Positions 28,214-47,035 of a stretch of 64,000 nucleotides of DNA are shown piece after piece (within the stretch, counting starts at the first letter, position 1; each line of letters starts with the position of its first letter). Position numbers and translations under genes: made by a program. The notes below the pieces were generated by a model. The model was not told the DNA's origin and ran no database searches. It saw only the letters and a program-made list of their open reading frames with translations. The stretch comes from Ramlibacter ginsenosidimutans (GTDB lineage: Bacteria > Pseudomonadota > Gammaproteobacteria > Burkholderiales > Burkholderiaceae_C): the NCBI RefSeq assembly GCF_016654015.1, contig NZ_JAEPWM010000006.1:62001-126000 (forward strand), in the 5' to 3' direction.

Positions 28214-29266
28214 TTACGCCTTGGTGGTCTTCGTGTACTTCTCGATGAGCGCGTGCGCGGTGTCCAGCAGCTTGCGGCCGTCGAAGCCGCGCTTGTTCAT
28301 GTCTTCCACCCACTCCACATCGAGCTGGCGCGAGCGGCGGCGGAACTCCTGGGCATCGGTCGGGCTGACCGTGAAGATGGTGTTGCCATGGTCGACGGCG
28401 GACTTGCGGCCCGCGGCGTCGCCGGCCTGCTGCGTCTTGCCGAGCCAGCCCGAAGTGGCGAGGCCCGAGTTGGCGTCGATCACCTTCTTCAGGTCCGGCG
28501 AGAGCGACTCGTACTTCGCCTTGTTCATGCACATGACGAAGGTGGTCGTGTAGAGGGCGCCGCCGGCGGGATCGAACTCGGCGCTGTACTTCGTGAGCTC
28601 GTTCACCTTGACCGAGGGGACCACCTCCCAGGGGATCACGCAGCCCTGGATCGTGCCCTTGGAGAGCGCGTCGGGGATCTGCGGCAGCGGCATGCCCACC
28701 GGCGTGGCACCCAGGGCTCCCAGCAGCTTCGTCACCTGCCGCGTCGGCGCGCGCAGCTTCAGGCCGCGCATGTCGTTCACCGTGTGCACCGGCTTTTCGG
28801 TGGTGTGGATGCAGCCCGGCCCGTGCACCTGCAGTGCGAGCAGGTGCGTTTCCTTGAATTCGTCCGGAGCCACGGTCTGCACGTACTCCCAGTACGCCTT
28901 GGACGTCGCTTCGGCGTTGGTCATGATGAAGGGAAGCTCGAACACCTCCACGCGCGGGAAGCGGCCGGCGGTGTTGCCAGGCAGCGTCCAGACCACGTCC
29001 ACGACGCCGTCGCGCGCCTGGTCGTACAGCTGCACGGGCGTGCCGCCCAGCTGCATCGCCGGATAGGCCTCGAACTTGATGCGGCCGTTGGAGTCCTTCT
29101 CCACCTTGGACATCCACGCCTTGTGCATGTTCAGCCACACGTTCGACAGCGGCGCCATGAAGGTGTGGAACTTCAGCGTGACCGCCTGCTGCGCGAGGCC
29201 GGACAGGGCGGAGCCGCCGAGCGCGGCGGCCGCGCCGGTCTTCAGGAGGGTTCTGCGTTGGATCAT
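28214..29266 (-). CDS. TRAP transporter periplasmic substrate-binding subunit (DctP family)
   Basis: A 350-residue receptor. The N-terminus MIQRRTLLKTGAAAALGGSALSGLAQQ has a twin-arginine-like signal (RRTLLK). The mature domain shows the DctP pattern (VTLKFHTFMAPLSNVWLNMHKAW, LPGNTAGRFPRVEVFELPFI, DMRGLKLRAPTRQVTKLLGALGATPVGMPLPQIPDALSKGTIQGCVIPWE), with the conserved carboxylate-binding Arg in LRAPTRQ. It binds an organic acid for the DctQM permease encoded immediately upstream in the transcript. Probable ligand: an aromatic acid feeding the gentisate genes (inference). Confidence 0.93.
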   Translation of the reverse strand: MIQRRTLLKTGAAAALGGSALSGLAQQAVTLKFHTFMAPLSNVWLNMHKAWMSKVEKDSNGRIKFEAYPAMQLGGTPVQLYDQARDGVVDVVWTLPGNTAGRFPRVEVFELPFIMTNAEATSKAYWEYVQTVAPDEFKETHLLALQVHGPGCIHTTEKPVHTVNDMRGLKLRAPTRQVTKLLGALGATPVGMPLPQIPDALSKGTIQGCVIPWEVVPSVKVNELTKYSAEFDPAGGALYTTTFVMCMNKAKYESLSPDLKKVIDANSGLATSGWLGKTQQAGDAAGRKSAVDHGNTIFTVSPTDAQEFRRRSRQLDVEWVEDMNKRGFDGRKLLDTAHALIEKYTKTTKA

Positions 29267-29334: not shown

Positions 29335-30654
29335 CTAGCTCATGAAGCGCACGAGCCACAGCGCGATGCCGGGGAAGGCGAGCATCAGCGCGATGCGCAC
29401 GAAGTCGCTCACCAGGAAGGGCAGCACGCCGCGGAAGCTTTCCGCCAGCGGCACCCCCTTGGCCATGCCGTTCACCACATAGACGTTCAGGCCCATGGGC
29501 GGCACCAGCATGCCGAAGGAAATCACCATCAGGATCAGGATGCCGAACCAGAGCGCCAGCGGCTCCTTGGCCATGCCGAAGTCCAGGCTCATGACCACGG
29601 GGAAGAAGATCGGGATGGTGAGCAGCACGATCGACAGTTCCTCCGTCACCGTGCCCAGCAGGATGTGCAGGATGACGATGCCCACCATCACCCAGATCGG
29701 CGCGACGTGCCAGCCGTTGATCAGGCTCACGAGCTGGGACTGGATCTGCGTCAGCGCAAGCGCCGAATTCAGCACGTCGGCGCCGATGAAGATCAGGAAG
29801 ATCATCGCGGAGCTTTCCGCGGTCGCCAGGAAGCAGTCCAGGAACTTGCGCCAGCTCATCTCGCGCTTCAGGAGCGCCGCCACGAAGGCCGACGCCGCGC
29901 CCACGGCGGCGCCTTCGGTGGGCGAGAAGAAGCCGCCATAGATGCCGCCGAAGACCAGCAGGAACACGAAGGCGATCGGCATCAGGCCGAGCACCGTGCG
30001 CCACTGGAACGGCGGCGGGTTCTCCTCCAGCTCCGGCGCGTGGCCAGGGACGAGGCGCACATAGATCGCGATCACGATCATGTAGCCCACCATCGCGAGC
30101 ACGCCGGGCACCGTGGCCGCGAGGAACAGCTTCGCGATGTTCTGCTCGGTGAGGATCGCGTAGATCACCAGCGGCACCGAGGGCGGGATCAGGATGCCGA
30201 GCGTGCCCGCGGTGGCGAGTGCGCCGGTGGCGAGCCGGCCCGAGTAGCCGTGCCGCTTCATCTCCGGCAGCGCGACGCCGGTGATGGTGGCGGCCGTGGC
30301 GACCGAGGAGCCGCAGATCGCGCCGAAGGCGGCGCTGGCCATCACTGCCGCCATCGCGAGGCCGCCGCGGAAGCGGCCCACCACCGCCGCCGTGAACTCG
30401 AACAGCGCCTTGCTGATGCCGCCCTGCGTGGCGAACTGCCCCATGAGGATGAACAGCGGGATCACCGACAGGTCGTAGCTGGCGAAGCGCGCGAACGCCA
30501 TGCTGTTCATGAAGTTCGCGTAGGGCAGCCAGCCGGTCTGCAGCACGTAGCCGATCGACCCCGAGAGGAACATCGCGATCGCGATCGGCGTGCGGATCGC
30601 CATGAACGCGAACATCACGAGGATCATCGTGACCGCGAGCGAAATACCGGTCAT
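29335..30654 (-). CDS. TRAP transporter large permease (DctM family)
   Basis: A 439-residue membrane protein with about 12 hydrophobic helices (MTGISLAVTMILVMFAFMAI..., FASYDLSVIPLFILMGQFATQGG, GSSVATAATITGVALPEMKRHGYSG, LGILIPPSVPLVIYAILTEQ, GLNVYVVNGMAKG). This is the Na+/H+-coupled translocation subunit of a tripartite ATP-independent periplasmic transporter. It lies between DctQ and DctP; 37 nt separate it from DctQ. Confidence 0.95.
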   Translation of the reverse strand: MTGISLAVTMILVMFAFMAIRTPIAIAMFLSGSIGYVLQTGWLPYANFMNSMAFARFASYDLSVIPLFILMGQFATQGGISKALFEFTAAVVGRFRGGLAMAAVMASAAFGAICGSSVATAATITGVALPEMKRHGYSGRLATGALATAGTLGILIPPSVPLVIYAILTEQNIAKLFLAATVPGVLAMVGYMIVIAIYVRLVPGHAPELEENPPPFQWRTVLGLMPIAFVFLLVFGGIYGGFFSPTEGAAVGAASAFVAALLKREMSWRKFLDCFLATAESSAMIFLIFIGADVLNSALALTQIQSQLVSLINGWHVAPIWVMVGIVILHILLGTVTEELSIVLLTIPIFFPVVMSLDFGMAKEPLALWFGILILMVISFGMLVPPMGLNVYVVNGMAKGVPLAESFRGVLPFLVSDFVRIALMLAFPGIALWLVRFMS

Positions 30655-31278: not shown

Positions 31279-31974
31279 TCAGGCCACGCGCACGCGCAAC
31301 TCGGGCAGGCCCGTGACGCCGCCCACCAGCGTGTCGCCTTGCACGACCGCCGCCACGCCCTCGGGCGTGCCCGTGTAGATCAGGTCGCCGGGCGCCAGGT
31401 CCCAGGCCGTCGAGAGGTGCTCGATGATCTCGCCGATGTTCCAGATCAGCTTGGAGACGTTGCTGCGCTGGCGGTCCTTGCCGTTCACCTGCAGCCAGAT
31501 CTCCGCACGCTCGACGTCGCCTGCCTGGGCCGCGGGCACGATCGGGCCGATGGGCGCCGATTCCTCGAACGACTTGCCGATTTCCCAGGGCCGCCCCAGC
31601 TTCTTCTGCTCGCCCTGCAGGTCGCGGCGCGTCATGTCCAGGCCCACGGCGTAGCCGAAGATGTGCTTCTTCGCGTCCGCAGCCTTGATGTTCTTGCCGC
31701 CCGTGCCGATGCAGGCCACCAGCTCGATCTCGTGGTGCAGGTCCTTGGTCAGGCTGGGATAGTGGATCGTGCCCGTCTCGCCCTGCGGCACCACGACCGC
31801 CGCGTCGGCGGGCTTGAAGAAGAAGAACGGCGGCTCGCGGCCGGTGAAGCCCATTTCCTTCGCGTGCTCGACGTAGTTGCGGCCCACGCAGTAGATGCGG
31901 CGCACCGGGAAACGCTCGGACCGGCCCACGACGGGGACGCTCACCAGGGGCGCGGGGTTGAAGACGTAGCTCAT
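31279..31974 (-). CDS. Fumarylpyruvate hydrolase (fumarylacetoacetate hydrolase family)
   Basis: A 231-residue FAH-fold protein from ATG 31974, overlapping the dioxygenase stop by 4 nt (ATGA). The FAH core is intact: [38 protein letters not shown] (metal ligands Glu-x-Glu), [25 protein letters not shown], and [12 protein letters not shown]. In the gentisate pathway this enzyme splits fumarylpyruvate to fumarate and pyruvate. Coupling to gentisate dioxygenase supports that substrate over fumarylacetoacetate. Confidence 0.9.
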
Positions 31975-33026
31975 GACAACCTTTCTTCGTTGTGGATGCC
32001 CAGCGCTTCGTGCACCGGGCGATCCGAGAAACTGAACAGCACACAGCCCTTGCTGCTCGAGAGGCGGGCAGTGTGCCACGACGGCACCACGAAATGATCG
32101 CGCGGGCCGAAGCGGAACGACCAGCTGCGCTCGTCCTGCTGGATCTGCACCTCGCCTTCGCCCTCGACCACGCTGTACACCGCACCATCGGTCTGGCGCC
32201 AGCCCTGGCCCTGGAAACCGGCGGGCAGGCGCTGCATGAACGTGCCGATGGTGGGCATGGTCCAGCCGCCGGTGAGCGGGTTCACGTAGCGCAGCTTGAA
32301 GCCGTCCCAGGCGTCGACGGGCGCGTGCTGCTCCAGTTCGTGGAGCGCCTCGCGGCTGCGTTCGTAGGGATAGCTGAAGATGGGCGAAGTCTTGCCGAAG
32401 GGCGGCGCGTGCCGCACCGGCACCATGTTGTGCCCGTAGCGCGCGAAGCTCGTGCCCTCGGGACGCGTGACCTGCTGCGACTTGCTGGTGTCGTTCTGGG
32501 CGAAGCCGGCATCGAAGAAGCGCAGCATCGGGATGTCCAGGCCGTCGAGCCACACGACCGGCTCGTCCGCCTCGTGCCCGTGGTCATGCCAGGTCCAGCT
32601 GGGCGTGATGATGAAGTCGCCCGGGCGCATGGTGGTGCGCTCGCCGTCCACCGCGGTGTACGCGCCCGATCCTTCGACGATGAACCGCAGCGCGCTCTGC
32701 GTGTGGCGGTGGCTGGGCGCGACCTCGCCGGGCAGGATCAGCTGCAGGCCGGCGTAGAGGGACTGCGTGATGCACGACTGCCCGCGCAGGTTCGGGTTCT
32801 CGAGAATCAGCACGCGGCGCACCGCTTCTTCCGCAGTGATCGCGTCGCCCGCGCGCATCAGGAACGGACGCACCTCGTCGTACTTCCAGAGCGCCGGCGC
32901 GCACGGGCTCGCCGGGCGCGGCGGGACGAGTGCGTGCAGCACCTCCCACAGCGGCGTGAGGTTGTACGCGTCCATGTCGCGGTACAGCTGTTCGCGCACC
33001 TGAGCGGTGGGGATGGGGGCGTTCAT
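31971..33026 (-). CDS. Gentisate 1,2-dioxygenase
   Basis: A 351-residue bicupin from ATG 33026 ([30 protein letters not shown]), the typical GDO N-terminus. Iron-binding histidines lie in the first cupin ([30 protein letters not shown] with TWHDHGHE). The second cupin is [16 protein letters not shown]...HFVVPSWH. It cleaves gentisate (2,5-dihydroxybenzoate) to maleylpyruvate. The next step, maleylpyruvate isomerisation, has no gene in this operon; a zeta-class GST gene lies 13 kb away (46394-47035). Confidence 0.95.
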
Positions 33027-33036
33027 GCGAGCTCCT

Positions 33037-34380
33037 TTACCAGCGGCGGCCCAGGTAAGCGCCATTGTCTTCCAGGGCGCGCTGCAGCGTGGGTACGTCG
33101 ACTTCTGCATTGACCAGGCCGGACTTCAGGGCGAGATCGGCAGCCGCGCCGACGGCCTGCCCCATCACGAAGCAGGCCCCCGTCACCCGCGCGGCGGACT
33201 GCGCTTCGTGGCTCATCGACGCGCAGCGGCCCGCGACCCAGACGTTGTCCAGCCCCTGCGGCACGGTCATGCGATAAGGCAGCTGGTTGAAGCCGCGGCT
33301 CTCGGGGATCTTAGGCCAGCGGAATTCGACGTCGCCCTTCAGGTGCAGCTCCAGCGGCCACCCGTTGACGCCGACGGTGTCGTCGAAGCTGGCGCAGTCC
33401 AGCACGTCGGATTCGGTCAGCTCGTACAGGCCGTGGACGCGGCGCGTTTCGCGGATGCCCACCTGCGGCGCGATGTCCGAGATGTAGCTCTGCTCGAAGC
33501 CGGGCACCTCCCGCAGGAAGCCGGCGACGCTGGCGATCTGGCGGCGCCCCAGCACCTCCGCCTCGGAGAGCTCGGTCGCGTCGACCCCGTTCATGGCGTT
33601 GCCCTGCGCGTTCGCCAGCTGCGTGAGGTTGACGCGCCATTCGATGCCGCTCTTTTGCGGCCGCACGATCGCGCCCTTGCGTGGAAAGCGGTAGCGGCCC
33701 TCGGATTCGGCCTGCGCCATCAGCTTCGGGATCGCCTCCCAGGCCTTGCCGGCGCGCTGCGGATCGACGCCGTTGACGCGGAACATCGTGGACGGGTACA
33801 GCATGTTGCCGTGCCCGTCGCCCAGCGCGTAGGGCGCGCCGGCCCAGGCAGCGAGATCGCCGTCGCCGGACGCGTCGATGAACGCGCGGGCCAGCACGGC
33901 GCAGCGGCCCGACTTCGTCTCCAGCAGCAGCGCCTGCACGCGCCGCTCCCCGTCCATGACCACACCGGCCGCAAGTGCGTGGAACAGGACTTCCACGGCG
34001 GCGGAGAGCATCAGGTCGTCCGCCGCGATCTTGTACGCCGCCGTGTCGTAGGCCTGCGCCACGGTCTTGCCGAACAGCGCGTGCGGCGTGTTGAGGCCCC
34101 CTAGCGCGTCTATGCGTTGCAGCAGGTCGTCGGCGACGCCGTGGACCACCTGGCGAATCTCGCCATGCACGTTGGCGTGCAGGCCGCAGAAGTTGGTCAC
34201 GCCCGCCGCGGTGCCCATGCCGCCGAGGAAGCCGTAGCGTTCCACCAGCAAGGTCTTGCGGCCGGCGCGCGCGGCCGCGACCGCGGCAGCGATGCCGGCC
34301 GGGCCACCGCCCAGCACGACCACGTCGTATTCGCCCCGCACCGGTGTCTGGCGTGCGGGTTCAGTGAGGTTGCGGGTCAT
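33037..34380 (-). CDS. FAD-dependent oxidoreductase (FAD_oxidored family)
   Basis: A 447-residue flavoprotein from ATG 34380. The N-terminal dinucleotide motif is [37 protein letters not shown]. The family-specific [16 protein letters not shown] (with Cys) and [15 protein letters not shown] follow, and the C-terminal closing FAD motif is [33 protein letters not shown]. It is the first gene of the gentisate operon and precedes the dioxygenase by 10 nt, so it probably creates gentisate or processes a precursor. It is not a classical salicylate- or 3-hydroxybenzoate-type monooxygenase by sequence. The reaction is unknown. Confidence 0.8.
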
Positions 34381-34408
34381 CCGTTGGGCGCGAAGGGAAA
34401 AGATGATA

Positions 34409-34437
34409 AGCATACATAGCGATGCGGCGTGACGCAA
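34409..34437 (-). promoter_or_regulatory. Candidate promoter of the gentisate operon
   Basis: On the minus strand TTGCGT (34437-34432) and TATGCT (34414-34409) are separated by 17 nt, 29 nt upstream of the FAD-oxidoreductase ATG. The AT-rich stretch GATAAGCATACATAGC lies between the divergent operon and the MarR gene and is a likely MarR binding region. Confidence 0.4.
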
Positions 34438-34922: not shown

Positions 34923-35075
34923 GCGCCAGCTCGGCCGCAGCGGCAAGGGTAAGTCCCATGCGGCCCCTGCACGCCAGCCTGAATGATGCTTCGGATGACG
35001 ATTGCGCCGCCCCGCGACAAGGGGCGCGCGGCCGAGGCAGGACGTGCGTGGGAGCATATCCACCAAGGAGACAGC

Positions 35076-36200: not shown

Positions 36201-36211
36201 GGCACGCGGCC

Positions 36212-37723
36212 TTGGACCCCGTCCTGCAGCTCGTCGAGGTGTCCAAGCGCTATGGCGGGGTCCGCGCGCTTGCGCACGCGGACTTCGCCTGCACCGCCGG
36301 GCGCATCCACGCGCTGCTGGGCGAGAACGGCGCTGGCAAGTCCACGCTGATCAAGGTGATGGCGGGCGTGGTGCAGCCCGACGAGGGACGCATCGTGCTG
36401 CAGGGACGCGAGCGCCGTTTCGCGCATCCGCAGGAAGCGGTCTCCGCCGGCATCGCCTGCATCTTCCAGGAGCTCTCGCTGCTGCCGGACCTGAGCGTCG
36501 CCGACAACATCTGCATCACCAACCCGCCGCGGCGCTTCGGGCTGATCGATCGCAAGGAGCAGCGACGGCGCGCCGAGGCGGCGCTCGCGCGTGCGGGCGC
36601 GCAGGACATCCACCCGCTGGCGCCCGTGGCTGGCCTGCCGCTGTCGCGGCGGCAGCTCGTGGAGATCGCGAAGGCGCTGGCCCGCGACCCGAAGATCCTG
36701 ATCCTGGACGAGGCGACCTCGGCGCTGACGGCGGCCGACGTGCAGCGCGTCTTCGCGCTGCTGCGGCGGCTGCGCTCGGAAGGACTGGCAATCGTCTACA
36801 TCTCGCACCGCATGCCGGAAATCGCGGAACTGGCGGACGACTGCTCGGTGTTCCGCAACGGCACGCGCGTGGCCAGCTTCGAGGCCGGCACGCGCAGCGA
36901 CGCGCAGGTGCTGGAGATGATGATTGGCCGCGACATCGCGCACGCCTTCCCGCCCAAGCCGCCGCCGCCGGCGAACCAGCCGGCGCCCGTGCTGCAGACG
37001 CGGCGCCTCGGCTGGGCCGGGCGGCTGCACGACATCGACCTGGCGGTGCGCCCCGGCGAGATCGTGGGGCTCGGCGGCCTCGACGGCCAGGGGCAGCGCG
37101 AGCTGTTCCTGGCCTTGTTCGGCGTGCTGCGCGGCGTCACCGGCGAAGTGCGCATCGATGGCCTCCCCGCGCGCACGCGCGACCCGCGTGCAGCGAAGGC
37201 GCGCGCGCAGGGCATCGCGCTGGTGCCCGAGGACCGCAAGATGGACGGCCTGCTGCTGCCCATGTCCGTCAACGACAACCTCAGCCTCGCCGCCCTGGAC
37301 CGCTTCAGCCGCGCAGGCGTGCTGGTCGCCGCGGCCGAACGCGAAGCCGTGGGCGGCATGGTGCGGCGCCTCGCGATCAAGGTCGGCGACCCGGGCGATC
37401 CGGTCGCCACGCTGTCCGGCGGCAACCAGCAGAAGGTGGTGATCGGCAAATGGCTGCTGACGGCGCCGCGCATCCTGCTGCTGAACGATCCCACCCGCGG
37501 CATCGACGTGGGCACCAAGCAGGAGATCTACGCCTTGATCCGCGAGCTCGCCGCCGAAGGCGCGGCGGTGCTGCTGTATTCCACCGACTACGCGGAGCTG
37601 ATCGGCTGCTGCGACCGCGTCGCCGTGTTCTACGGCGGCCGCATCGTGCGCTGGCTGCAAGGCGATGCGCTTACGGAACGCGCGCTGGTCGCCAGCGCGC
37701 TGGACCTGCAGGAGGCGGCATGA
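36212..37723 (+). CDS. Sugar ABC transporter ATP-binding protein (RbsA type, two NBDs)
   Basis: A 503-residue tandem ATPase. The start is probably TTG 36212 (LDPVLQLVEVSKRYGGVRAL); GTG 36239 is an alternative. The first domain has Walker A GENGAGKST, the signature-like PLSRRQLVEIAKAL (Gly of LSGGQ replaced), and Walker B ILILDEATSAL. The second has a degenerate Walker A (LGGLDGQGQRELF), a full signature LSGGNQQKVVIGKWL and a Walker B reading LLLNDPTRGID, with Asp-Glu replaced by Asn-Asp. This asymmetry, one active site altered, is partly typical of RbsA/MglA. Its stop overlaps the permease start (ATGA). Confidence 0.92.
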   Translation: MDPVLQLVEVSKRYGGVRALAHADFACTAGRIHALLGENGAGKSTLIKVMAGVVQPDEGRIVLQGRERRFAHPQEAVSAGIACIFQELSLLPDLSVADNICITNPPRRFGLIDRKEQRRRAEAALARAGAQDIHPLAPVAGLPLSRRQLVEIAKALARDPKILILDEATSALTAADVQRVFALLRRLRSEGLAIVYISHRMPEIAELADDCSVFRNGTRVASFEAGTRSDAQVLEMMIGRDIAHAFPPKPPPPANQPAPVLQTRRLGWAGRLHDIDLAVRPGEIVGLGGLDGQGQRELFLALFGVLRGVTGEVRIDGLPARTRDPRAAKARAQGIALVPEDRKMDGLLLPMSVNDNLSLAALDRFSRAGVLVAAAEREAVGGMVRRLAIKVGDPGDPVATLSGGNQQKVVIGKWLLTAPRILLLNDPTRGIDVGTKQEIYALIRELAAEGAAVLLYSTDYAELIGCCDRVAVFYGGRIVRWLQGDALTERALVASALDLQEAA

Positions 37724-38706
37724 CACGGTTGGAGTGGCAGTACCGGCTGCGCGAACAGCGCGCCACGATGGCGGCCGTGGCACTGTTCGTGGTCCTGTTT
37801 GCGCTCTACATCGGCAAGCACCCGGTCGGCTGGGACGCCGCCGTGCTCACGACGGCCGCGAACAAGGGCGTGCTGCTGGCGGTGGCCGCGATGGCGCAGA
37901 CGCTGCCGGTGCTCACGGGCGGCATCGACCTGTCGGTGGGCATGGTGTTCGTGCTGGCGAACTGCCTGGCCTCGCACCTGGTCGTGGGCTCGGGCTGGCA
38001 TGCTGCGCTTGGCGTCGCCGCGGTGCTGGCGACGGGTGCCGCCTGCGGACTGGTGAACGGATTCATCATCGTCTACGGACGGCTGCAGCCGATCATCACG
38101 ACGCTTGCCACCGGGATCGTGTACTTCGGCCTGGCGCTGGGACTGCGGCCCGTGCCCGGCGGCGACGTCCACGCCGGCGTGGCGGAGGCGCTGACCGGCT
38201 CGCTGCCGGGCGCCGTGCCCAGCATGCTGCTGGTGTTGCTCGCGGTGGTGCTGCTCGTCTGGCTGCCTTACCGCCGCTCGGTGCTCGGGCGCGCGGCCCT
38301 CGCCATCGGCTCCTCGGAGACGGCCAGCTACATGTCCGGCGTGGCGATGGGCCGGACCATCCTGCTCACGTACACCCTGGCCGGCCTGCTCGCCGCGATC
38401 GGCGGCCTCCTGCTCACCTTCGTCACGTTCTCGGGCGAGGCTTCGTCGGCCATCGGCGGCGTCTACACGCTCAACTCCATCGCGGCGGTGGTGATCGGCG
38501 GTGTCTCGCTCGCAGGGGGCAGTGGCAGCGCCGTCGGCGCGATCTTCGGCGCCTTCGCATTGCGCACCATTGGCGACCTGCTGTTCGTGTTCGACTTCGA
38601 GCCCTTGTGGCAGCCGCTGTTCCAGGGCGTGATCCTGCTGGTCGCCGTGAGCGTCGGCTCCATCCGCCTGCTGCGCGTGGGCAACCGGCTCGCGCTCTTC
38701 CGCTGA
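37720..38706 (+). CDS. Sugar ABC transporter permease 1 (RbsC family)
   Basis: A 328-residue membrane protein from ATG 37720, overlapping the ATPase stop by 4 nt. About 8-10 helices. The RbsC family motifs LPVLTGGIDLSVGMVFVLANCLASHLV and GLVNGFIIVYGRLQPIITTLATG are present, and the C-terminal GVYTLNSIAAVVIGGVSLAGGSGSAVGAIFGAF carries the family's EAA-like interaction loop. It forms a heterodimer with the second permease. Confidence 0.94.
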   Translation: MTRLEWQYRLREQRATMAAVALFVVLFALYIGKHPVGWDAAVLTTAANKGVLLAVAAMAQTLPVLTGGIDLSVGMVFVLANCLASHLVVGSGWHAALGVAAVLATGAACGLVNGFIIVYGRLQPIITTLATGIVYFGLALGLRPVPGGDVHAGVAEALTGSLPGAVPSMLLVLLAVVLLVWLPYRRSVLGRAALAIGSSETASYMSGVAMGRTILLTYTLAGLLAAIGGLLLTFVTFSGEASSAIGGVYTLNSIAAVVIGGVSLAGGSGSAVGAIFGAFALRTIGDLLFVFDFEPLWQPLFQGVILLVAVSVGSIRLLRVGNRLALFR

Positions 38707-38711
38707 AACCG

Positions 38712-39680
38712 ATGACGACGATCGCCTTGCGCATGCGCAGCTCCCGCCACCTGCCGGTGCTGGCAGGGGCCGCATGCACGCTGGTGCTGCTGCTGGTGGG
38801 CAGCCTCTACTCGCGCAACTTCCTCTCGCCCGAGTACCTGCTGCTGCAGCTGCAGATCGCGTCCTTCCTCGGCATCATCGCGACCGGCGCGATGCTCGTC
38901 ATCCTGCTGGGCGGCATCGACCTGTCGGTGCCCTGGCTCGTGACGGTAGGCGGCATGATGTCGGCCGCGGCCGCAGGCTGGTGGCACGGGCAGGGCGCAG
39001 CGATCGCGATTCCCTTTGGCATCCTCTGCGGCGCGCTGCTGGGCCTGCTGAACGGGATCGGCGTCGCCTACCTGCGCGTGCCCTCGATGATCTTCACCCT
39101 CGGCATGAACGCCGTCGCCCAGGGACTCATCGTCGTGCACACGGGCGGCTTCGCGCCGCAGGACCGCGCCACACCCGCGATGCACCTGGTCGCGACGGGG
39201 CGCTCCTTCCTCGGCATTCCCAACGCCTTGCTGGTCTGGGCGGTGGTGGGCGCGGGCGCCTTGTTCCTCCTGCACCGGACCGCGTTCGGGCGCGCGGTGT
39301 ACGCCGTCGGCAACCGTGAGCGCGCGGCCTATCTTTCAGGCATTGCCACGCGCCGCGTCACCTTGCTCTGCTTCGTGATCGCCGGCGCGTGTTCGGCGGC
39401 CGCCGGCGTGCTGCTCACCGGCTATTCCACGAAGGCCTACCAGGCCATGGGCGATGCGTACCAGCTGCCCGCCATCGCCGCGGTGGTGCTGGGCGGCACC
39501 CACATCCTCGGGGGACGCGGTTCCTACCTGGGGACCGTCGTGGGTGTCGTGCTGGTCACGCTGCTGCAATCCATCCTCTCCGTGATGCAGATCCCGGAGA
39601 TGGGCCGCCAGGTGGCCTACGGCCTGGTGATCATCGCGATGCTGCTGGTGTACGGCCGAGGGCGCCGGCACGCGGCTTGA
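38712..39680 (+). CDS. Sugar ABC transporter permease 2 (RbsC family)
   Basis: A 322-residue RbsC-type permease, 5 nt after permease 1. Motifs: GAMLVILLGGIDLSVPWLVTVGGMMSAAAAG, LLGLLNGIGVAYLRVPSMIFTLGMNAVAQG, and QLPAIAAVVLGGTHILGGRGSYLGTVVGVVLV. Two distinct permeases instead of one are typical of several uncharacterised pentose/polyol importers. The lactonase gene follows 10 nt later. Confidence 0.94.
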   Translation: MTTIALRMRSSRHLPVLAGAACTLVLLLVGSLYSRNFLSPEYLLLQLQIASFLGIIATGAMLVILLGGIDLSVPWLVTVGGMMSAAAAGWWHGQGAAIAIPFGILCGALLGLLNGIGVAYLRVPSMIFTLGMNAVAQGLIVVHTGGFAPQDRATPAMHLVATGRSFLGIPNALLVWAVVGAGALFLLHRTAFGRAVYAVGNRERAAYLSGIATRRVTLLCFVIAGACSAAAGVLLTGYSTKAYQAMGDAYQLPAIAAVVLGGTHILGGRGSYLGTVVGVVLVTLLQSILSVMQIPEMGRQVAYGLVIIAMLLVYGRGRRHAA

Positions 39681-39690
39681 GGAGGCCTTC

Positions 39691-40638
39691 ATGGCGATCG
39701 AACTCACGTCCAGTTTCGAAGTCATCGACGAGCGCTTCCGCGCGCTGGCGTTCGGCAACGTGCACCTGGAACGCCTGTACACGGGTTGCCGCTGGGCCGA
39801 GGGACCGGCGTGGTTCGCCGCCGGCCGCTACCTGGTCTGGTCCGACATCCCGAACGACCGCATGCTGCGCTGGGACGAGACCGACGGCTCGGTGTCCGTG
39901 TTCCGCCAGCCGGCGATGAACACGAACGGGCACACGGTGGACCTGCAAGGCCGGCTGGTGTCCTGCGAGCACCGGGGCCGCTGCGTCTCGCGCACGGAGC
40001 ACGACGGCACGCGCACGGTGCTGGCCGAGCGCTTCGAAGGCAAGCGCTTCAACTCGCCCAACGACCTGGTCGTGAAGTCGGACGGCAGCATCTGGTTCTC
40101 CGATCCGAGCTACGGGATCGACAGCGACTACGAAGGCGATGCCGCTCCCGGCGAACTGGGCGAATGCTGCCTCTATCGCATCGACGGCGACTCCGGTGCG
40201 GTGAGCCGGGTGGCGACCGGCTTCGTGCAGCCGAACGGGCTGGCCTTCTCGCCCGACGAGCGCTGGCTCTATGTGGCGGACACGGGGGCGACGCACGTCG
40301 CGGGGGGACCACGGCACATCCGCCGCTTCCAGGTGAAGGAGGGCGGCCGCGCGCTTGCGGGCGGCGAGGTGTGGGCGCAATGCGGTGCCGGTCTCTTCGA
40401 CGGCTTCCGCGTCGACGTGCATGGCCACGTCTGGACCAGCGCCGGCGACGGCGTGCATTGCTACGCGCCGGACGGTGTGCTTCTCGGCAAGGTGCGCGTG
40501 CCCGAGGCCGTCGCCAACGTGTGCTTCGGCGGGCCCAAGCTGAATCGCCTGTTCATCTGCGCGACGAGCTCGCTGTACTCGGTGTACCTGAACACGCGGG
40601 CCGTGCCGCGGCCTAGGACGACTTGGCCAGCAGCGTGA
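39691..40638 (+). CDS. SMP-30/gluconolactonase-family sugar lactonase
   Basis: A 315-residue six-bladed beta-propeller. Features include the metal/substrate Glu in GCRWAEGPAWFAAGRYLVWSDIPNDRML, the Asn in RFNSPNDLVVKSDGSIWFSDPSYGID, and the Asp-containing GLAFSPDERWLYVADTG. This family hydrolyses aldonolactones. It lies 10 nt after the sugar permease, implying import of an aldose whose lactone is opened here; the dehydrogenase is not in this operon. Its 3' end overlaps the convergent ABM-domain gene by 26 nt. Confidence 0.92.
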   Translation: MAIELTSSFEVIDERFRALAFGNVHLERLYTGCRWAEGPAWFAAGRYLVWSDIPNDRMLRWDETDGSVSVFRQPAMNTNGHTVDLQGRLVSCEHRGRCVSRTEHDGTRTVLAERFEGKRFNSPNDLVVKSDGSIWFSDPSYGIDSDYEGDAAPGELGECCLYRIDGDSGAVSRVATGFVQPNGLAFSPDERWLYVADTGATHVAGGPRHIRRFQVKEGGRALAGGEVWAQCGAGLFDGFRVDVHGHVWTSAGDGVHCYAPDGVLLGKVRVPEAVANVCFGGPKLNRLFICATSSLYSVYLNTRAVPRPRTTWPAA

Positions 40639-40915
40639 AGTGCTCCACCACCGGCGGCTGCGCGAAGAACGGCCCCACGATGCTGCGCCATTGCGCGAAC
40701 AGCGGGCTTTGGCGGAAGCCCACGGTATGCGCCTCCAGCGTGTCCCAGAAGATCTGCAGGATGTAGCGCTCGGGGGATTCGATGCCCTTGTTCACCTTCC
40801 AGCCGCGCATGCCCTCCGCGTGGGCAGCGACCGTGCGCAGTCCGCGTTCGATGGCTTCGTCAAAGGCGGCCTGCTGGCCGGGTCGGATGCGGATGTCGGC
40901 GACTTCGAGGATCAT
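40613..40915 (-). CDS. Antibiotic-biosynthesis-monooxygenase (ABM) domain protein
   Basis: A 100-residue dimeric alpha/beta-barrel protein from ATG 40915 (MILEVADIRIRPGQQAAFDEAIERGLRTVAAHAEGMRGWKVNKG...QIFWDTLEAHTVGFRQSPLFAQWRSIVGPFFAQPPVVEHF). The ABM fold occurs in small monooxygenases and in accessory stress proteins; no cofactor-binding residues can be assigned. It is convergent with the lactonase gene, with 26 nt of coding overlap. It has no co-directional neighbour. Confidence 0.8.
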   Translation of the reverse strand: MILEVADIRIRPGQQAAFDEAIERGLRTVAAHAEGMRGWKVNKGIESPERYILQIFWDTLEAHTVGFRQSPLFAQWRSIVGPFFAQPPVVEHFTLLAKSS

Positions 40916-41008
40916 GCGGTTCTCCTTGGCAGTCGCGCAGTCTAGCCGTAAGCTCGTCACGCTCCGCGCGCGTTCCGGGGCGATTCGCCAGCAGCTTCAG
41001 GAGATGCC

Positions 41009-41667: not shown

Positions 41668-41991
41668 CTAGTGCTGCGTCGCCGGCAGGTCGACGGTCAG
41701 TCCGTCGAGCGCCGGCGCGAGTTCGATCTGGCAACTCAGTCGGCTGTTCGCCTGGCGCGGCGCCGCGGTGAATTCCAGCATGCCCAGCTCGTCGTCCTGC
41801 GGGGGCGGCAGTTGCGCGGCGAAGGGTTCGCGGACATACACGTGGCAGGTCGCGCAGGTGAGCAGGCCGCCGCAGTCCGCCTCGATGCGGCGCACGTTCG
41901 CAGCGACCGCGGCCTGCATGAGGCTTTCGCCGGGTTTCGCTTCCAGGGTGGTTTCGGCGCCGTCCGGGGCCACGAGGTGGATCCTGATCAT
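41668..41991 (-). CDS. 2Fe-2S ferredoxin
   Basis: A 107-residue plant/adrenodoxin-like ferredoxin from ATG 41991. Cluster ligands: the Cys in RIEADCGGLLTCATCHVYV (Cys-X5-Cys-X2-Cys) plus the distal Cys in NSRLSCQIELAPALDGL. It is the last gene of the five-gene Rieske operon, 2 nt after the glutamine-synthetase-like stop. It is the obvious electron donor to the Rieske oxygenase; the reductase that recharges it is not encoded here. Confidence 0.92.
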   Translation of the reverse strand: MIRIHLVAPDGAETTLEAKPGESLMQAAVAANVRRIEADCGGLLTCATCHVYVREPFAAQLPPPQDDELGMLEFTAAPRQANSRLSCQIELAPALDGLTVDLPATQH

Positions 41992-41993
41992 GC

Positions 41994-43472
41994 TCAGAGG
42001 CGGGCGAAGTACTCGCGCCGCTGGAATTCGTCCGGGTCCTCGGCGGCGGCGAAGCGCTGCTGCTCGGACCGCTTGATGCGGGTGTAGTAGTCGACGAAGC
42101 CGCGGCCGAAGGCATCGCAGAGCACCGTGTCCTGCTCGAGCGCCGACAGCGCATCGCCCAGGCTGGTGGGCAGGGATTCGCCCTGGCCGGCGTAGGGTGC
42201 ATCGGTGGCGCGCGGCGCCCGCAGTGCGCGGGCGATGCCGTCCAGGCCGGCGTGCACCTGCGATGCGAAGTAGAGGTACGGATTGGCGGCCGGCTCGCCG
42301 ATGCGGTTCTCGATGCGCGTCGCCGCGTCGCCGCAGCCGCCGATCACGCGCAGCAGCGCGCCGCGGTTGTCGCGGCCCCACAGCACGGACTGCGGCGCCA
42401 GCGCATTCGGGCGGAAGCGGCCGAAGCCATTGGCGGTCGGCGTGCAGAACACGGTCGTGCCGCGCGCGTGCGCGAGCAGGCCGGCGAGATAGTGCTCGCC
42501 GAGGTCCGACAGCGTGTGCGCCGCATCCGAGGAATCGGTGCCGGCTTTCGGCACGTCGCGCTGGAAGGCGTTGCGCCCGGTGCCAGCGTCGCACAGCGAC
42601 TGGTGCAGGTGCCAGCCGCTCGACATGATGTTGGGGAAGGGCGGGCGGCACATGAAGCTCGCGTGGTAGCCCGCACGCCGCAGCGCCATCTTCACGGCAT
42701 TGCGGAACAGCACCATGTTGTCCGCGGCGGCGAGGGCGTCCGTCGCCTCGAACACCGCTTCCACCTGGCTGGGCCCCAGTTCGATCTCCAGCGACAGCAG
42801 CGGCAGGCCGAGCGCCTGCGCCGTGTGCTGCACGATGCGCATAGGCTCCTCCGCCTGGTCGTACCAGCCTTCGGCCAGCAGGTTGTAGCCGGGATGCACG
42901 AGGCTCACCGCCGGCGCCGGCGGCGGCCACGCGGACTGCATTGGATCCAGCGCGGGCTGCGTGTCCTGCAGCTTGTAGATGTGGAACTCCACCTCCAGCC
43001 CGCACTTCAGGGTGAAGCCCGCCTCGGCCAGCCGCGCGAGCGCGCGCTGCAGCACGCGCCGCGTGTCCAGCTCCACCGGCGTGCCGTCCTCGAACCAGGG
43101 CTGCGCGCGCAACCAGCCGGTGGCGGGCGTCCAGGGCAGCTGGCGGAAACTGTCCGGGTCGGCGAGCAGCAGCAGGTTGTTGGCGAAGCCGAAGCCAGGC
43201 AGGCTGGCGGTGCCACCCGGCTCGAACACCTTGAACGCAGTCCGGTCCGAGGTGTCCTTGAGCAGCAGCGTGCTGACCAGGCCCACGCCTTCGCGCAGTG
43301 CGCGTTCGGCCGCCGCGGCCACCAGCGTCTTGCCGCGCAACACGCCGTGCTGGTCGCACCAGGCGAAGCGCACGAGTTCCAGGCCTTGCCCGGAAATGAG
43401 CCGGCCCAGGCGCTGCACGGCCTGCTCGCGCGCGGCGTCGTGGATGCCGCAGCGTTGCGCGAACGAACTCAC
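41994..43472 (-). CDS. Glutamine-synthetase-like gamma-glutamyl/amide ligase
   Basis: A 492-residue GS-fold protein from GTG 43472, overlapping the Rieske gene stop by 4 nt (GTGA). GS features: FAWCDQHGVLRGKTL (beta-grasp), KCGLEVEFHIYKL (catalytic Glu pair), EIELGPSQVEAVFEATDALAAADNMVLFRN, SSGWHLHQSL (the GS His loop), and RIENRIGEPAANPYLYFASQVHAGLDG. The canonical NSYKRL region is replaced by NGFGRFRPNALAPQ, so it is unlikely to be housekeeping GlnA. Relatives ligate glutamate or other acids to amines (for example gamma-glutamylanilide or gamma-glutamylputrescine synthases). Substrate unknown. Confidence 0.85.
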   Translation of the reverse strand: MSSFAQRCGIHDAAREQAVQRLGRLISGQGLELVRFAWCDQHGVLRGKTLVAAAAERALREGVGLVSTLLLKDTSDRTAFKVFEPGGTASLPGFGFANNLLLLADPDSFRQLPWTPATGWLRAQPWFEDGTPVELDTRRVLQRALARLAEAGFTLKCGLEVEFHIYKLQDTQPALDPMQSAWPPPAPAVSLVHPGYNLLAEGWYDQAEEPMRIVQHTAQALGLPLLSLEIELGPSQVEAVFEATDALAAADNMVLFRNAVKMALRRAGYHASFMCRPPFPNIMSSGWHLHQSLCDAGTGRNAFQRDVPKAGTDSSDAAHTLSDLGEHYLAGLLAHARGTTVFCTPTANGFGRFRPNALAPQSVLWGRDNRGALLRVIGGCGDAATRIENRIGEPAANPYLYFASQVHAGLDGIARALRAPRATDAPYAGQGESLPTSLGDALSALEQDTVLCDAFGRGFVDYYTRIKRSEQQRFAAAEDPDEFQRREYFARL

Positions 43473-44857
43473 GTGGCCTGCGCCTCGACCTGGGACGCGG
43501 TGCCCTGCAGCCAGGGCGCGCCCGCGCGCTTGGCGCGCACGCGCTCCTGCCACCAGGTGCTCCAGGTGCCCGCGGGCGCGATGCCGTCCACCGTATCCGG
43601 CCCTTGCATCTGCGCCGCCAGGCTCGCATCGGCCGCGCCGGGCGCGGTGCCGCCGGCCTGCACGGCCTCGATCGCCTTGAGCAGCATGCGCCGGTTGGCC
43701 ATGATCACCTTGTCGCTGGTGCCCAGGTGCTCGCGCGTGCGGTCCTGGATGGGCCCCATGCTCTCGACGGCCCACTGGTCGTGGACGTTGATGTCTTCCT
43801 CGCCCATGCCCAGGTAGGTCTGCGTGCGCTGCTCCTCGGGATTGAAGCCCCAGCGGTTGTGGCGGCCGGACTTCGGCAGGTAGTCGGGCAGCGAGATGAA
43901 CTGCAGGCGCTGGTTGCGCATCGCGTCCTTGTCCACCGGGGCGCCGAAGCTGGTGAAGATCGAGTACCAGTAGGTGTGCTCGTCGTCGACGGGCAGGTGC
44001 ATCTGCGTGATGGTGAGCGTCTCCGACAGCGGGATCACGAAGGTGTGCGGGAAGATCGCCTGGGTGACGCGCACGTGCGTGAGCTCCTCGGTCATCGGCC
44101 TCAGCGTCGTGAGCTGCAGGCCCCAGGGCCTGGCTTCCGCGGCGATCTCCGGCTGGTGGAACTCGCGCATGATCCGGCTCATCGGCCACTTCTCGCCGGC
44201 AAACTCGCCTGCGCTGGCGCTGCGGAACTGCTTGCCCGCCGCGTTCTCGCCGACGGCGTCGAGCGGCGCGTCATTGAGGAAGCGGTGCAGGAACGAGGGA
44301 TGCGCCGGGTCGATGCCGACTTCGAACGCCTGCAGCCAGTTGCAGTGCCACAGGCCCTTGAACGCGAAGGTGTGCGTCGCGGGCGCCGCAAAGCAGTCGA
44401 AGGCGGGGAAGGGCGGCGCCTTGCCTTCTTCTCCCAGCCACGCGAACAGCACGCCACTCTTCTCGAGCACCGGATAATTGCGCTGCCGCACGCGCTCGCA
44501 CAGCTTGCTGCCCGCGGGCTCGGCGGGCGTTTCCAGGCAGCGGCCGGTGGCGTCGAACTTCCAGCCATGGAAGGGACAGCGCAGCCCGTCGCCTTCGTGG
44601 CGCCCGAAGGAGAGATCGGCGCCCCGGTGCGGGCAGTCGCGATCGAGCAGGCCCCAGCGGCCCGAGGCCTCGCGGAACAGCACGAGGTCTTGCCCCATCA
44701 CCCGCAGCGCCTTCACCGGCCGGTTCGCCATGCGCGGATCGAGCCGCGCATCGAATTCGTCGACCAGGGCAACGGGTTGCCAGTAGCTGCGCAGCACCGC
44801 CCCGCAGGGCGTCCCGGGGCCGATGCGCGTGACCAGTTCGTTCTGTTCTGCTTTCAT
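43469..44857 (-). CDS. Rieske-type aromatic ring-hydroxylating or O/N-demethylating oxygenase
   Basis: A 462-residue oxygenase alpha subunit. The N-terminal Rieske centre is CPHRGADLSFGRHEGDGLRCPFHGW (CxH-X16-CxxH). The mononuclear iron ligands lie in NWLQAFEVGIDPAHPSFLHR (D-X2-H-X4-H). The N-terminus ELVTRIGPGTPCGAVLRSYWQPVAL and the length place it with the phthalate-dioxygenase/LigXa-like group, which use a separate ferredoxin or reductase and lack a beta subunit. It lies between sodC (4 nt) and the GS-like ligase (4-nt overlap). The substrate may be an amine, amide or aryl ether. Confidence 0.93.
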   Translation of the reverse strand: MKAEQNELVTRIGPGTPCGAVLRSYWQPVALVDEFDARLDPRMANRPVKALRVMGQDLVLFREASGRWGLLDRDCPHRGADLSFGRHEGDGLRCPFHGWKFDATGRCLETPAEPAGSKLCERVRQRNYPVLEKSGVLFAWLGEEGKAPPFPAFDCFAAPATHTFAFKGLWHCNWLQAFEVGIDPAHPSFLHRFLNDAPLDAVGENAAGKQFRSASAGEFAGEKWPMSRIMREFHQPEIAAEARPWGLQLTTLRPMTEELTHVRVTQAIFPHTFVIPLSETLTITQMHLPVDDEHTYWYSIFTSFGAPVDKDAMRNQRLQFISLPDYLPKSGRHNRWGFNPEEQRTQTYLGMGEEDINVHDQWAVESMGPIQDRTREHLGTSDKVIMANRRMLLKAIEAVQAGGTAPGAADASLAAQMQGPDTVDGIAPAGTWSTWWQERVRAKRAGAPWLQGTASQVEAQAT

Positions 44858-44861
44858 GGCT

Positions 44862-45380
44862 TCAGGAGTGCTGGATGACGCCGCATGCGAGGCGCGGGCC
44901 CGAGTTGCCGGCGGGCTGCGACGTGAAGTCGTCCGGGTCGCGATGCACCACCACGCTGCGGCCGATCACGTTGTGCTCGCCGGTGCCGACACCGAAGTCG
45001 GCGGATACTAAGTTGACGTGGGCGACCCCCGCCGCATCGGCGCGCAAGCTCGGGAGGTCGCCTTCATGGTGCTCGCGCTGGTCGTAGCGTCCGTGCGCAT
45101 GCTTGCCGGGGTTGTAGTGGCCGCCGGCGCTCATGGCGTCGGGGCTGGAGCAGTCGCCCTTCTCGTGGATGTGGAAACCGTGTTCCGCGTCCGGCTTGAG
45201 CCCGCTGATTTCGCCGGAGACCAGCACCCGGTCGCCTTGCTGCGTGAAGTACAGGGTGCCCGATGCACTGTTTCCGACGGTTGGCGAGAGGACCGCGCGT
45301 GCAGTGGCGCCCGTCGGGCCGTTCATGTGGGAGCAGGCCGCCAGCAGCAAGGCAGTGGCGCAGGCGATGAGGTGGCGCAT
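44862..45380 (-). CDS. sodC: Cu/Zn superoxide dismutase lipoprotein
   Basis: A 172-residue protein from ATG 45380 with lipoprotein signal MRHLIACATALLLAACSH (lipobox LAAC). The mature part holds the SOD ligands: GFHIHEKGDC (Cu His-x-His and the disulfide Cys), GGHYNPGKHAHG (bridging and Zn His), DLPSLRADAAGVA (Zn Asp region), RSVVVHRDPDDF (Cu His) and the closing RLACGVI (second Cys). It detoxifies periplasmic superoxide. Unusually it is packed between a hydrolase (17 nt) and the Rieske oxygenase (4 nt), so it is translated with an oxygenase operon. Confidence 0.95.
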   Translation of the reverse strand: MRHLIACATALLLAACSHMNGPTGATARAVLSPTVGNSASGTLYFTQQGDRVLVSGEISGLKPDAEHGFHIHEKGDCSSPDAMSAGGHYNPGKHAHGRYDQREHHEGDLPSLRADAAGVAHVNLVSADFGVGTGEHNVIGRSVVVHRDPDDFTSQPAGNSGPRLACGVIQHS

Positions 45381-45397
45381 GGCGTTCCCTCCTCGCT

Positions 45398-46336
45398 TCA
45401 GGCCAGCGCCTGCCGCAACTGCGCGGCGCACAGTTGCACCGCGACGTTCGCTTCGTCGATCACGCGGCCCATCAGGATGAAGCCGTGGATCTGCCGCTCG
45501 AAGTTCACCAGCGCCGCCCGGTTGCCGGCCTCGGACAGCTTCTGCGCGTACTGCAGCCCTTCGTCGCGCAGCGGGTCGTAGCCCGCGGTGAGCACGAACG
45601 CCGGCGGCAGGCGTGCATGGTCGGCGTGCAGCAGCGGCGAGGCGCGCCAGTCGAGGTCCTGCGCCGGGTCGGCGATGTAGTGGTCGTGAAAGTAGTTCAT
45701 CGTGTCGCGCGTGAGCAGGTAGCCCTCGCCATTGCTGGTGTGCGAGGGCGCGCCGCGGCGCTGGTCCGTCGCCGGATAGATCAGCAGCTGGAACGCGATC
45801 GGCAGGTCGCCGTTGTCACGCGCCGCGAGCGCGACCACCGCCGCGAGGTTGCCGCCGGCGCTGTCGCCGCCGACGGCCAGTCGCCCGGGGTCGACCTTCA
45901 ATGCCGCGGCGTTCGCGCGGACCCAGCGCGTCGCTGCGATGCAGTCGTCCACCGCGGCCGGGAAGCGATGCTCGGGGCCCATGCGGTAATCGACCGCGAT
46001 CACCGCGCAGCCGGACAGGTTGGCGAGCTGCCGGCACAACGTGTCGTGCGTGTCCAGGTCGCCGATCACCCAGCCGCCGCCGTGGTAGTAGACGAGCACC
46101 GGCAGGGCGGCGTCGGCAGGCGAGCCGGCGGGCCGGTAGCTGCGCAGCGGGATCGGCCCCGCCGGGCCGCGCGCCTCCAGGTCGCGCACCAAGGCCACCG
46201 GGGGCGGCTCGGGCTGCGTGTACGTGCGCCGATCGCGGTACAGCGCGCGCGCTTGCTCGACGCTGAGGGTGTGCGTCGCCGGCACGCCCTTCTCTTCGAT
46301 CAGGCGCAGCAGCGCCCGGGCCTGAGGATGCAGCAT
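45398..46336 (-). CDS. Alpha/beta hydrolase, hormone-sensitive-lipase (HSL) family
   Basis: A 312-residue carboxylesterase-like protein. Oxyanion-hole motif VLVYYHGGGWVIGDLDTHD (HGGGW), nucleophile GGDSAGGNLAA (GDSAG), acid in VLTAGYDPLRDEG (Asp), and base in RQIHGFILM (His). HSL-type esterases cleave short acyl esters, including aromatic and carbamate-like esters. It is the first gene of the operon leading to sodC and the Rieske oxygenase, so it may release the oxygenase substrate from an ester or amide. Confidence 0.92.
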   Translation of the reverse strand: MLHPQARALLRLIEEKGVPATHTLSVEQARALYRDRRTYTQPEPPPVALVRDLEARGPAGPIPLRSYRPAGSPADAALPVLVYYHGGGWVIGDLDTHDTLCRQLANLSGCAVIAVDYRMGPEHRFPAAVDDCIAATRWVRANAAALKVDPGRLAVGGDSAGGNLAAVVALAARDNGDLPIAFQLLIYPATDQRRGAPSHTSNGEGYLLTRDTMNYFHDHYIADPAQDLDWRASPLLHADHARLPPAFVLTAGYDPLRDEGLQYAQKLSEAGNRAALVNFERQIHGFILMGRVIDEANVAVQLCAAQLRQALA

Positions 46337-46393: not shown

Positions 46394-47035
46394 ATGAAGC
46401 TCCACAACTATTTCCGCTCCTCCGCCTCCTTCCGGGTGCGCATCGCGCTGGAGCTCAAGGGCCTGGCGTACGACTACCTGCCGGTGCACCTCGTCAAGGG
46501 CGAGCACAAGTCCGAGCGCTACGCCGCCGTCTCTCCTTCGGGGCTCGTCCCGGCGCTGGAGACGGACTCCGGCGAGGTGATCGGCCAGTCGATGGCCATC
46601 ATCGAATACCTGGACGAGACGCACCCCGAGCCGCCGCTGCTGCCGAAGGACCCGCTGGGCCGCGCCCGGGTGCGGGCGCTGGCGCAGCTGATCGCCTGCG
46701 AGATCCATCCGCTGAACAACCTGCGCGTGCTGAAGTACCTCGTGCGCGACATGAAGGTGACCGAGGAGGCGAAGAACACCTGGTACCGGCACTGGGTGCG
46801 CAGCGGCCTGGAGGCGTACGAGGCCGAGTTGCAGCGACTGCCCGCCTCCACCTTCTCCTTCGGCGATACGCCTTCGCTGGCGGACTGCTGCCTGGTGCCG
46901 CAGATCTTCAACGGCAAGCGCTTCGACGTGGACTTCAGCGGGCTGCCGCGCACCATGGCGGCTTTCGACGCGTGCATGAAGCTGCCGGCGTTCCAGCGAG
47001 CCCAACCCTCGAACTGCCCGGACAACGAAGGTTGA
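46394..47035 (+). CDS. Zeta-class glutathione S-transferase: maleylpyruvate/maleylacetoacetate isomerase
   Basis: A 213-residue GST from ATG 46394. The zeta-class motif SSASFRVRIALELKG (SSxSxRVRIAL) holds the glutathione-activating Ser. The segments PSGLVPALE and GQSMAIIEYLDETHPEPPLLP complete the thioredoxin half, and the C-terminal domain has IHPLNNLRVLKYL. Such enzymes isomerise maleylacetoacetate (tyrosine pathway) or maleylpyruvate (gentisate pathway, NagL). The window contains gentisate dioxygenase and a fumarylpyruvate hydrolase but no homogentisate dioxygenase, favouring maleylpyruvate; the gene is 13 kb from that operon, so this is inferred. Confidence 0.88.
   Translation: MKLHNYFRSSASFRVRIALELKGLAYDYLPVHLVKGEHKSERYAAVSPSGLVPALETDSGEVIGQSMAIIEYLDETHPEPPLLPKDPLGRARVRALAQLIACEIHPLNNLRVLKYLVRDMKVTEEAKNTWYRHWVRSGLEAYEAELQRLPASTFSFGDTPSLADCCLVPQIFNGKRFDVDFSGLPRTMAAFDACMKLPAFQRAQPSNCPDNEG

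Follow-up and report, generated by a model that had tools for sequence, protein, structure and literature searches.

A probable Sad-type aromatic amine oxygenase operon in Ramlibacter ginsenosidimutans

Background

The closest described relative of the genes studied here is the sad operon of Hydrogenophaga intermedia PBC. The genes themselves are five neighbors on the minus strand of a 64,000-nucleotide stretch of Ramlibacter ginsenosidimutans DNA (the window, by which we mean the whole stretch), which sits within a 5.3 Mb genome. They encode an esterase, a superoxide dismutase, a Rieske oxygenase, a ligase of the glutamine synthetase (GS) family and a ferredoxin. We believe this operon is quite probably a Sad-type aromatic amine oxygenase system, with an acidic aromatic amine as its predicted substrate.

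According to PMC5632844, sadA of strain PBC encodes 4-aminobenzenesulfonate 3,4-dioxygenase, sadB encodes a glutamine synthetase, a ferredoxin gene accompanies them, and the operon turns 4-aminobenzenesulfonate into 4-sulfocatechol. A legend in that paper labels the ferredoxin sadC, and SadD is named among the proteins involved. The operon is described there as fairly conserved across all the Hydrogenophaga genomes reported at that time. Gan and colleagues thought a natural substrate resembling 4-aminobenzenesulfonate likely because the strains had presumably met few xenobiotics (PMC5632844).

The ligase of a second kind of system has a solved structure. NpaA1 glutamylates 1-naphthylamine and anilines, and the bottleneck of its amine tunnel is formed by F75 and F86 from the neighboring subunit together with W235 (PMC11335346). 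A further paper, PMC7500099, deals with anaerobic aniline degradation via 4-aminobenzoate and mentions glutamine synthetase.

Results

An orthologue of the sad operon

The five genes are separated by 17, 4, -4 and 2 nucleotides and all are intact, which upholds the tight arrangement (gaps of -4 to 17 nucleotides) described in the original prediction, an earlier reading of this DNA from its letters alone. From the upstream end they are a LipP1/HSL-type esterase (45398..46336; Abhydrolase_3; 406 bits to NF058653, cut-off 350), which is accessory; the Cu/Zn superoxide dismutase SodC (44862..45380; Sod_Cu PF00080), which is lineage-specific and has a lipoprotein-like signal as judged by eye only; a SadA-like one-component Rieske oxygenase (43469..44857; PF00355 and LigXa_C PF19301), part of the core; a SadB-like GS-family ligase (41994..43472; Gln-synt_C PF00120), also core, whose GTG start overlaps the Rieske stop; and a SadD-like [2Fe-2S] ferredoxin (41668..41991; Fer2 PF00111; ATG start), core in most relatives. 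The gene identities assigned earlier agree with these domain searches (Abhydrolase_3, Sod_Cu, Rieske, Gln-synt_C, Fer2).

All nine loci labelled Hydrogenophaga carry orthologues of the Rieske, ligase and ferredoxin genes in that order, at 67-74% identity for the Rieske protein and 63-69% for the ligase. In each of three whole genomes of the Hydrogenophaga group a single ligase reaches 66-69%, and everything else stays at 37% or below. A Rieske orthologue (68-74%) is present in 53 of 67 genomes of that group, one of which has a second copy at 60%. From these sequences we infer that the Hydrogenophaga loci represent the sad operon as published and that an orthologue of it lies in the window. Since domains and order both match, a route of this design has already been described, and the window supplies a member of it from the Ramlibacter group. 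The original prediction had offered the set as possibly undescribed, but the combination of Rieske, GS and ferredoxin genes is that of the sad operon (PMC5632844).

The ligase and its Lys/Arg signature

Among solved structures the ligase is by far closest to NpaA1 (8wwu, 344 bits; the runner-up reaches 156). This homology favors the earlier idea that an amine is first gamma-glutamylated, as in aniline oxidation. The protein scores less than half of the cut-offs for ammonia-type GS (195 against 429 bits for TIGR00653, 204 against 470 for TIGR03105). It has lost the flap glutamate, the GFEAP of the genome's own GlnA reading NALAP in the window protein (Glu to Leu). In a tree it groups with the NpaA1-type ligases and not with its own GlnA or a second GS-family protein (branch 98/99; those two rows are long branches). 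The lost flap glutamate and this grouping are what mark a glutamyl organic amine synthetase (GoaS).

The position of F75 in NpaA1 is Lys72 in the window ligase, and Arg77 follows five residues on, in the loop KDTSDR; F86 is retained and W235 is a Leu. Across 127 loci, a set in which some genomes occur twice and locus L036 is left out, Lys stands at the F75 position in 120, and in 118 of those 120 the second site is Arg or Lys. The seven without Lys belong to aniline-type clusters or, in the case of genome G068, are its second ligase. The L036 ligase is also of the non-Lys type, and its stretch has neither a Rieske nor a beta-subunit match. With ten plasmid references added, 43 ligases fall into 28 with Lys and 15 without, split by one branch (100/99) in a tree that used the loop columns defining the Lys label and so slightly favors the split.

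The same division runs through the oxygenases. Each of the 27 Lys-type ligases whose fetched stretch includes a Rieske gene is paired with a one-component enzyme and no beta-subunit match, whereas the 11 non-Lys ligases that come with a Rieske gene are all paired with a two-component enzyme of the AtdA3/A4 type (Fisher p 8e-10, with related rows treated as independent). The 28th Lys row, from Palleronia, and four non-Lys rows have no Rieske match in their stretch. The Lys/Arg signature is new, and it separates Sad-type ligases from aniline-type ones, in which Phe or some residue other than Lys stands at the bottleneck. We read the pair as probably binding the acidic group that the substrate carries. 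Together with the genes for a tripartite ATP-independent periplasmic (TRAP) transporter nearby, it suggests an anionic aromatic amine.

The Rieske oxygenase and its electron supply

Both the cluster motif (CPH..CPFH) and the metal motif (D..H....H) of the Rieske protein are intact. By sequence its closest solved structure is 7fhr, the putative alpha subunit of a phthalate 4,5-dioxygenase, at 210 bits. An AtdA4-like beta-subunit gene has no match in the window or in the 80 named loci described below, and each of the 11 aniline-type loci with a Rieske gene gives a match; the first reading had likewise described a single-subunit oxygenase. The ferredoxin is of the putidaredoxin type, the closest solved structures being putidaredoxin at 98 bits.

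In the work of Gan et al. 2012, sadD is said to be the ferredoxin and sadC a reductase encoded elsewhere, and loss of sadB reportedly abolished activity in E. coli. The best reductase candidate in the window's own genome is 34% identical to a Caballeronia protein over partial length only.

Conservation across relatives

The named loci are the closest 80 of at least 569 confirmed; 49 of the 80 are full length, and their labels are mostly Comamonadaceae or Burkholderiales, with one metagenome-assembled genome labelled Methylobacillus. When neighboring open reading frames were clustered, true genes were mixed with shadow frames, and we kept only genes confirmed by Pfam or NCBIfam.

Every one of the 80 named loci has the Rieske gene immediately upstream of the ligase gene and in the same orientation; in a few, a contig end leaves only part of it. 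The original prediction had treated these two genes as partners, and in these loci they are, although a sample of the closest loci speaks for close relatives only. Within the genus the ligase has an orthologue in 45 of 59 genomes (41 full or nearly so and four fragmentary, by our tally), and the Rieske protein in 46 of 60. The two adjoin in 28 of 29 genus loci, the remaining one ending at a contig edge. Their adjacency is not chance, because orthologues at 67-89% identity adjoin in other species of the genus. In other families of the order, a ligase relative at 46-51% was found in 2 of 40 genomes. Two of the ligase orthologues (G049:C1:3103628-3105102 and G054:C1:2944863-2946272) match in several pieces or frames, which may reflect sequencing errors or decay.

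The other genes keep company with this pair to different degrees. The ferredoxin gene comes after that of the ligase in 58 of the 80 named loci and is present in 13 of the 16 long genus loci. The esterase is present in six of the 80 and eight of the 16, and SodC in one and two respectively, with a further cut-off piece in G045 (L008). A gene for a small ABM-domain protein, accessory and absent from the original prediction, is present in 20 of the 80 and 11 of the 16. In several relatives, for example L055 and L056, it comes straight after the gene for the ferredoxin or the ligase; in the window it lies 0.7 kb downstream of the operon (40613..40921, minus strand; PF03992), with a plus-strand ompA between it and the ferredoxin gene. 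These counts define the core as Rieske plus ligase, usually plus ferredoxin, with ABM as a frequent partner and SodC and the esterase as additions. The five genes as a set are therefore partly scattered in relatives: SodC and the esterase come and go, but the Rieske, the GS-like and usually the ferredoxin gene stay together.

A linked gentisate block

A same-strand block downstream, at 34.4-28.2 kb in the window, was also overlooked at first. It consists of a flavin adenine dinucleotide (FAD)-dependent oxidoreductase (33037..34437; PF12831), its start uncertain and its place the same in relatives; gentisate 1,2-dioxygenase, GDO (31971..33026; TIGR02272 at 539 bits, cut-off 442); an FAH-family hydrolase (31279..31974; PF01557) that overlaps the GDO stop; and the TRAP large permease DctM (29335..30654; TIGR00786 and PF06808) with the substrate-binding protein DctP (28214..29266; PF03480). 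All are on the minus strand, and in relatives the block stands close behind the sad genes. On the other side, a divergent upstream neighbor on the plus strand is a MaiA-family isomerase (46394..47035; TIGR01262 at 276 bits, cut-off 171), found in 23 of the 80 named loci. A DctP at least 65% identical is encoded in 34 of these loci.

In the window the sad genes are separated from the gentisate block by a plus-strand block (34983-40638) for a sugar-type ATP-binding cassette transporter, ending in an SMP-30/gluconolactonase-like gene. Its binding protein has matches only in R. cellulosilyticus (L053 and L037) among 100 loci.

Proposed mechanism

By analogy with SadB and NpaA1, the ligase would glutamylate an acidic aromatic amine at the expense of ATP, attaching its amino group to the gamma-carboxyl of glutamate. 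Lys72 and Arg77, at the mouth of the tunnel, probably hold the acidic ring group. Supplied with electrons by the neighboring ferredoxin and by a reductase whose gene lies elsewhere, the one-component Rieske enzyme would then oxidize two adjacent ring carbons, one of which bears the amide. Nitrogen would depart with glutamate and a catechol-type acid would be left, as when Hydrogenophaga converts 4-aminobenzenesulfonate to 4-sulfocatechol. What we observed in favor of the Sad reading is homology, a shared gene order, intact motifs, conservation and the split at the Lys/Arg positions; the chemistry we infer from the related systems. Our best guess for the native substrate is some aminobenzoate.

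Weighing the alternatives

The neighboring genes disagree on the amine: some plasmid relatives suggest 4-aminobenzoate, and Ramlibacter and its kin suggest the gentisate pathway. It is possible, though we think it less likely than not, that 4-aminobenzoate is the native substrate and protocatechuate the product, sulfanilate being used because its sulfonate resembles a carboxylate. The Lys/Arg signature fits this idea. PnbB, a 4-hydroxylaminobenzoate lyase, is encoded about 2.7-5 kb from Lys-type plasmid operons in Caballeronia insecticola, Paraburkholderia phymatum and Methylobacterium nodulans, with nitroreductases near (the first two are sister rows in the tree, and the P. phymatum PnbB was found by tblastn only). 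In Palleronia a Lys-type ligase gene adjoins a protocatechuate 3,4-dioxygenase cluster (pcaG/H/C/D). Such neighbors suggest 4-aminobenzoate and would fit the use of 4-nitrobenzoate as well. Yet PnbB has no match near the Lys-type plasmid operons of Polaromonas JS666, Novosphingobium SA1, Cupriavidus HN-2 and M. aquaticum, nor in the window's own genome, where the control genomes were silent too; and PnbB, one such nitroreductase and PcaGH have no match in any of the 80 named loci. The protocatechuate 4,5-dioxygenase LigA is present in the window's own genome, but we dropped it as a clue because it is uninformative, being above cut-off in 52 of 60 genus genomes, including 12 of the 14 that lack the Rieske gene. 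Moreover, the pathway linked in the window's own clade is that of gentisate. It may be argued instead that the operon feeds this linked pathway (GDO, MaiA, FAH, TRAP), starting from a substrate such as anthranilate, 3-aminobenzoate or 5-aminosalicylate and ending at gentisate or a close analogue. Most loci of Ramlibacter, Caenimonas and Polaromonas do have the FAD oxidoreductase, GDO, FAH and TRAP genes downstream in the same orientation, and GDO is so placed in 14 of the 16 long genus loci and 18 of the 80 named ones. In eight of the nine Hydrogenophaga loci an FAH gene lies within 0.1 kb behind the ferredoxin gene, mostly with DctP next; the window FAH is 77% identical to the protein in that place in L085, the window DctP is 75% identical to that of the L076 cluster, and MaiA is next door. 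Against this, GDO was not seen in the fetched stretches of those nine loci, and it stands alone too: within the genus, 41 of the 46 genomes that have the Rieske gene hold a GDO orthologue, as do 11 of the 14 that lack the Rieske gene (Fisher p 0.37, our own tally, with paralogues at 37-53% excluded), so coupling between the two blocks is not obligate. The scheme would also require chemistry beyond that known for Sad, and we consider it doubtful.

The remaining alternatives concern the kind of system. An aniline-type system (AtdA/Npa/Dca) for neutral aromatic amines would share the ligase family, at 37-44% identity, and the two-step logic, but the window ligase lies on a separate branch (100/99), its Rieske partner has one component, and Lys and Arg stand in the tunnel; we regard this as very unlikely. 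The missing amidotransferase, which the original prediction listed among the differences from the aniline system, is a weaker point and does not mark a new system, as some Lys-type plasmid operons have one nearby. It is more improbable still that the five genes form one pathway with SodC and the esterase as required steps: the spacing in the window is tight, but their counts in relatives, given above, speak against it. A Sad-type system for an acidic aromatic amine is the reading we prefer, and several points weigh against it. Its ligase is only 48% identical, across a long branch, to that of the sulfanilate degrader SA1, so the substrate may differ. Our equation with the published operon was made through loci labelled Hydrogenophaga and not through the PBC proteins themselves; the ligase groups with the operon as found in a genus where the system has been characterized, which partly answers the earlier question whether it belongs to a characterized family of known substrate. 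The Rieske orthologue is missing from 14 of the 67 Hydrogenophaga-group genomes, most of them small, and 22 of the 80 named loci have no ferredoxin gene beside the ligase, some being cut by contig ends. Searches that had no positive control gave no close reductase in the window's own genome and, with a Polaromonas JS666 query, no amidotransferase match there; the operon itself has no amidotransferase gene. Lastly, the linked ring-cleavage gene is of the gentisate type, and gentisate would not arise directly if an aminobenzoate underwent ipso-ortho dioxygenation.

Among openly licensed PMC papers, judged by title and the start of the abstract, we found neither an aerobic Rieske/GS-like route for aminobenzoates nor the Lys/Arg signature, which is weak evidence of absence. 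For the homarine pathway the literature search gave nothing usable, and for an acetaminophen or 4-aminophenol route it gave no matching system.

Other genes stand beside Lys-type ligases in more distant relatives. The ligase gene is directly followed by that of a small protein in Novosphingobium SA1 (L133, 11569-11910), Pseudooceanicola (L168, 6362-6700) and Palleronia (L167, 6427-6780); the first two are annotated as 5-carboxymethyl-2-hydroxymuconate isomerase, and the third is similar by eye. A hypothetical protein encoded before the Palleronia ligase (L167, 3426-4895) has by eye the look of a metal-dependent hydrolase, and a CehA/McbA-type metallohydrolase is annotated after the ligase gene of Sphingobium CFD-2 (L174, 6299-8869). 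Perhaps these metallohydrolase-like neighbors release the amine from an amide or carbamate.

Conclusions

Sad may not be mainly a system for xenobiotics. One conceivable history, which we put forward without much confidence, is that a Lys/Arg ligase and a one-component Rieske oxygenase form an old chromosomal pathway of the Comamonadaceae for natural amino-aromatic acids, which would glutamylate the amine and pass a dihydroxy acid on to a gentisate pathway, with a TRAP importer in the same cluster and sulfanilate use as a by-product. If so, a two-residue rule would predict acidic versus neutral amine use in this ligase family. Should that rule hold, the aromatic amines that a strain can attack, pollutants included, could be predicted from sequence. 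The question of the natural substrate of sad is widened here to several genera of Comamonadaceae, and the linked ring-cleavage and TRAP genes name candidate substrates.

Comparison with known systems

The described systems differ in how much they share with the window. The phthalate 4,5-dioxygenase 7fhr resembles the Rieske protein, but that match implies no ligase partner, and the substrate named for it is not an amine. AtdA1-A5 and NpaA1-A5 share the principle that a GS-family ligase glutamylates the amine before Rieske oxidation (PMC11335346). They differ in having a two-component Rieske oxygenase and an adjacent amidotransferase, and their ligases are the 37-44% identical, non-Lys ones discussed above. 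A cluster similar to theirs is carried by the Delftia plasmid pLME1, with what we take to be a role in chloroaniline use. Nearer to the window is plasmid pSA3 of Novosphingobium resinovorum SA1, where a SadA-like Rieske gene directly precedes a Lys-type ligase gene and the ferredoxin and an FAD reductase are encoded separately, nearby. That cluster, presumably the sulfanilate cluster of SA1, differs in lying beside a maleylacetate reductase gene and insertion sequences, and its ligase is the 48% identical one. The sad operon comes closest, with a Rieske dioxygenase, a GS-like ligase and a [2Fe-2S] ferredoxin, and with the same order in the Hydrogenophaga loci; the window differs in its genus and in the esterase, SodC and ABM genes around the core. 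This is a known kind of system to which a member from the Ramlibacter group is newly added.

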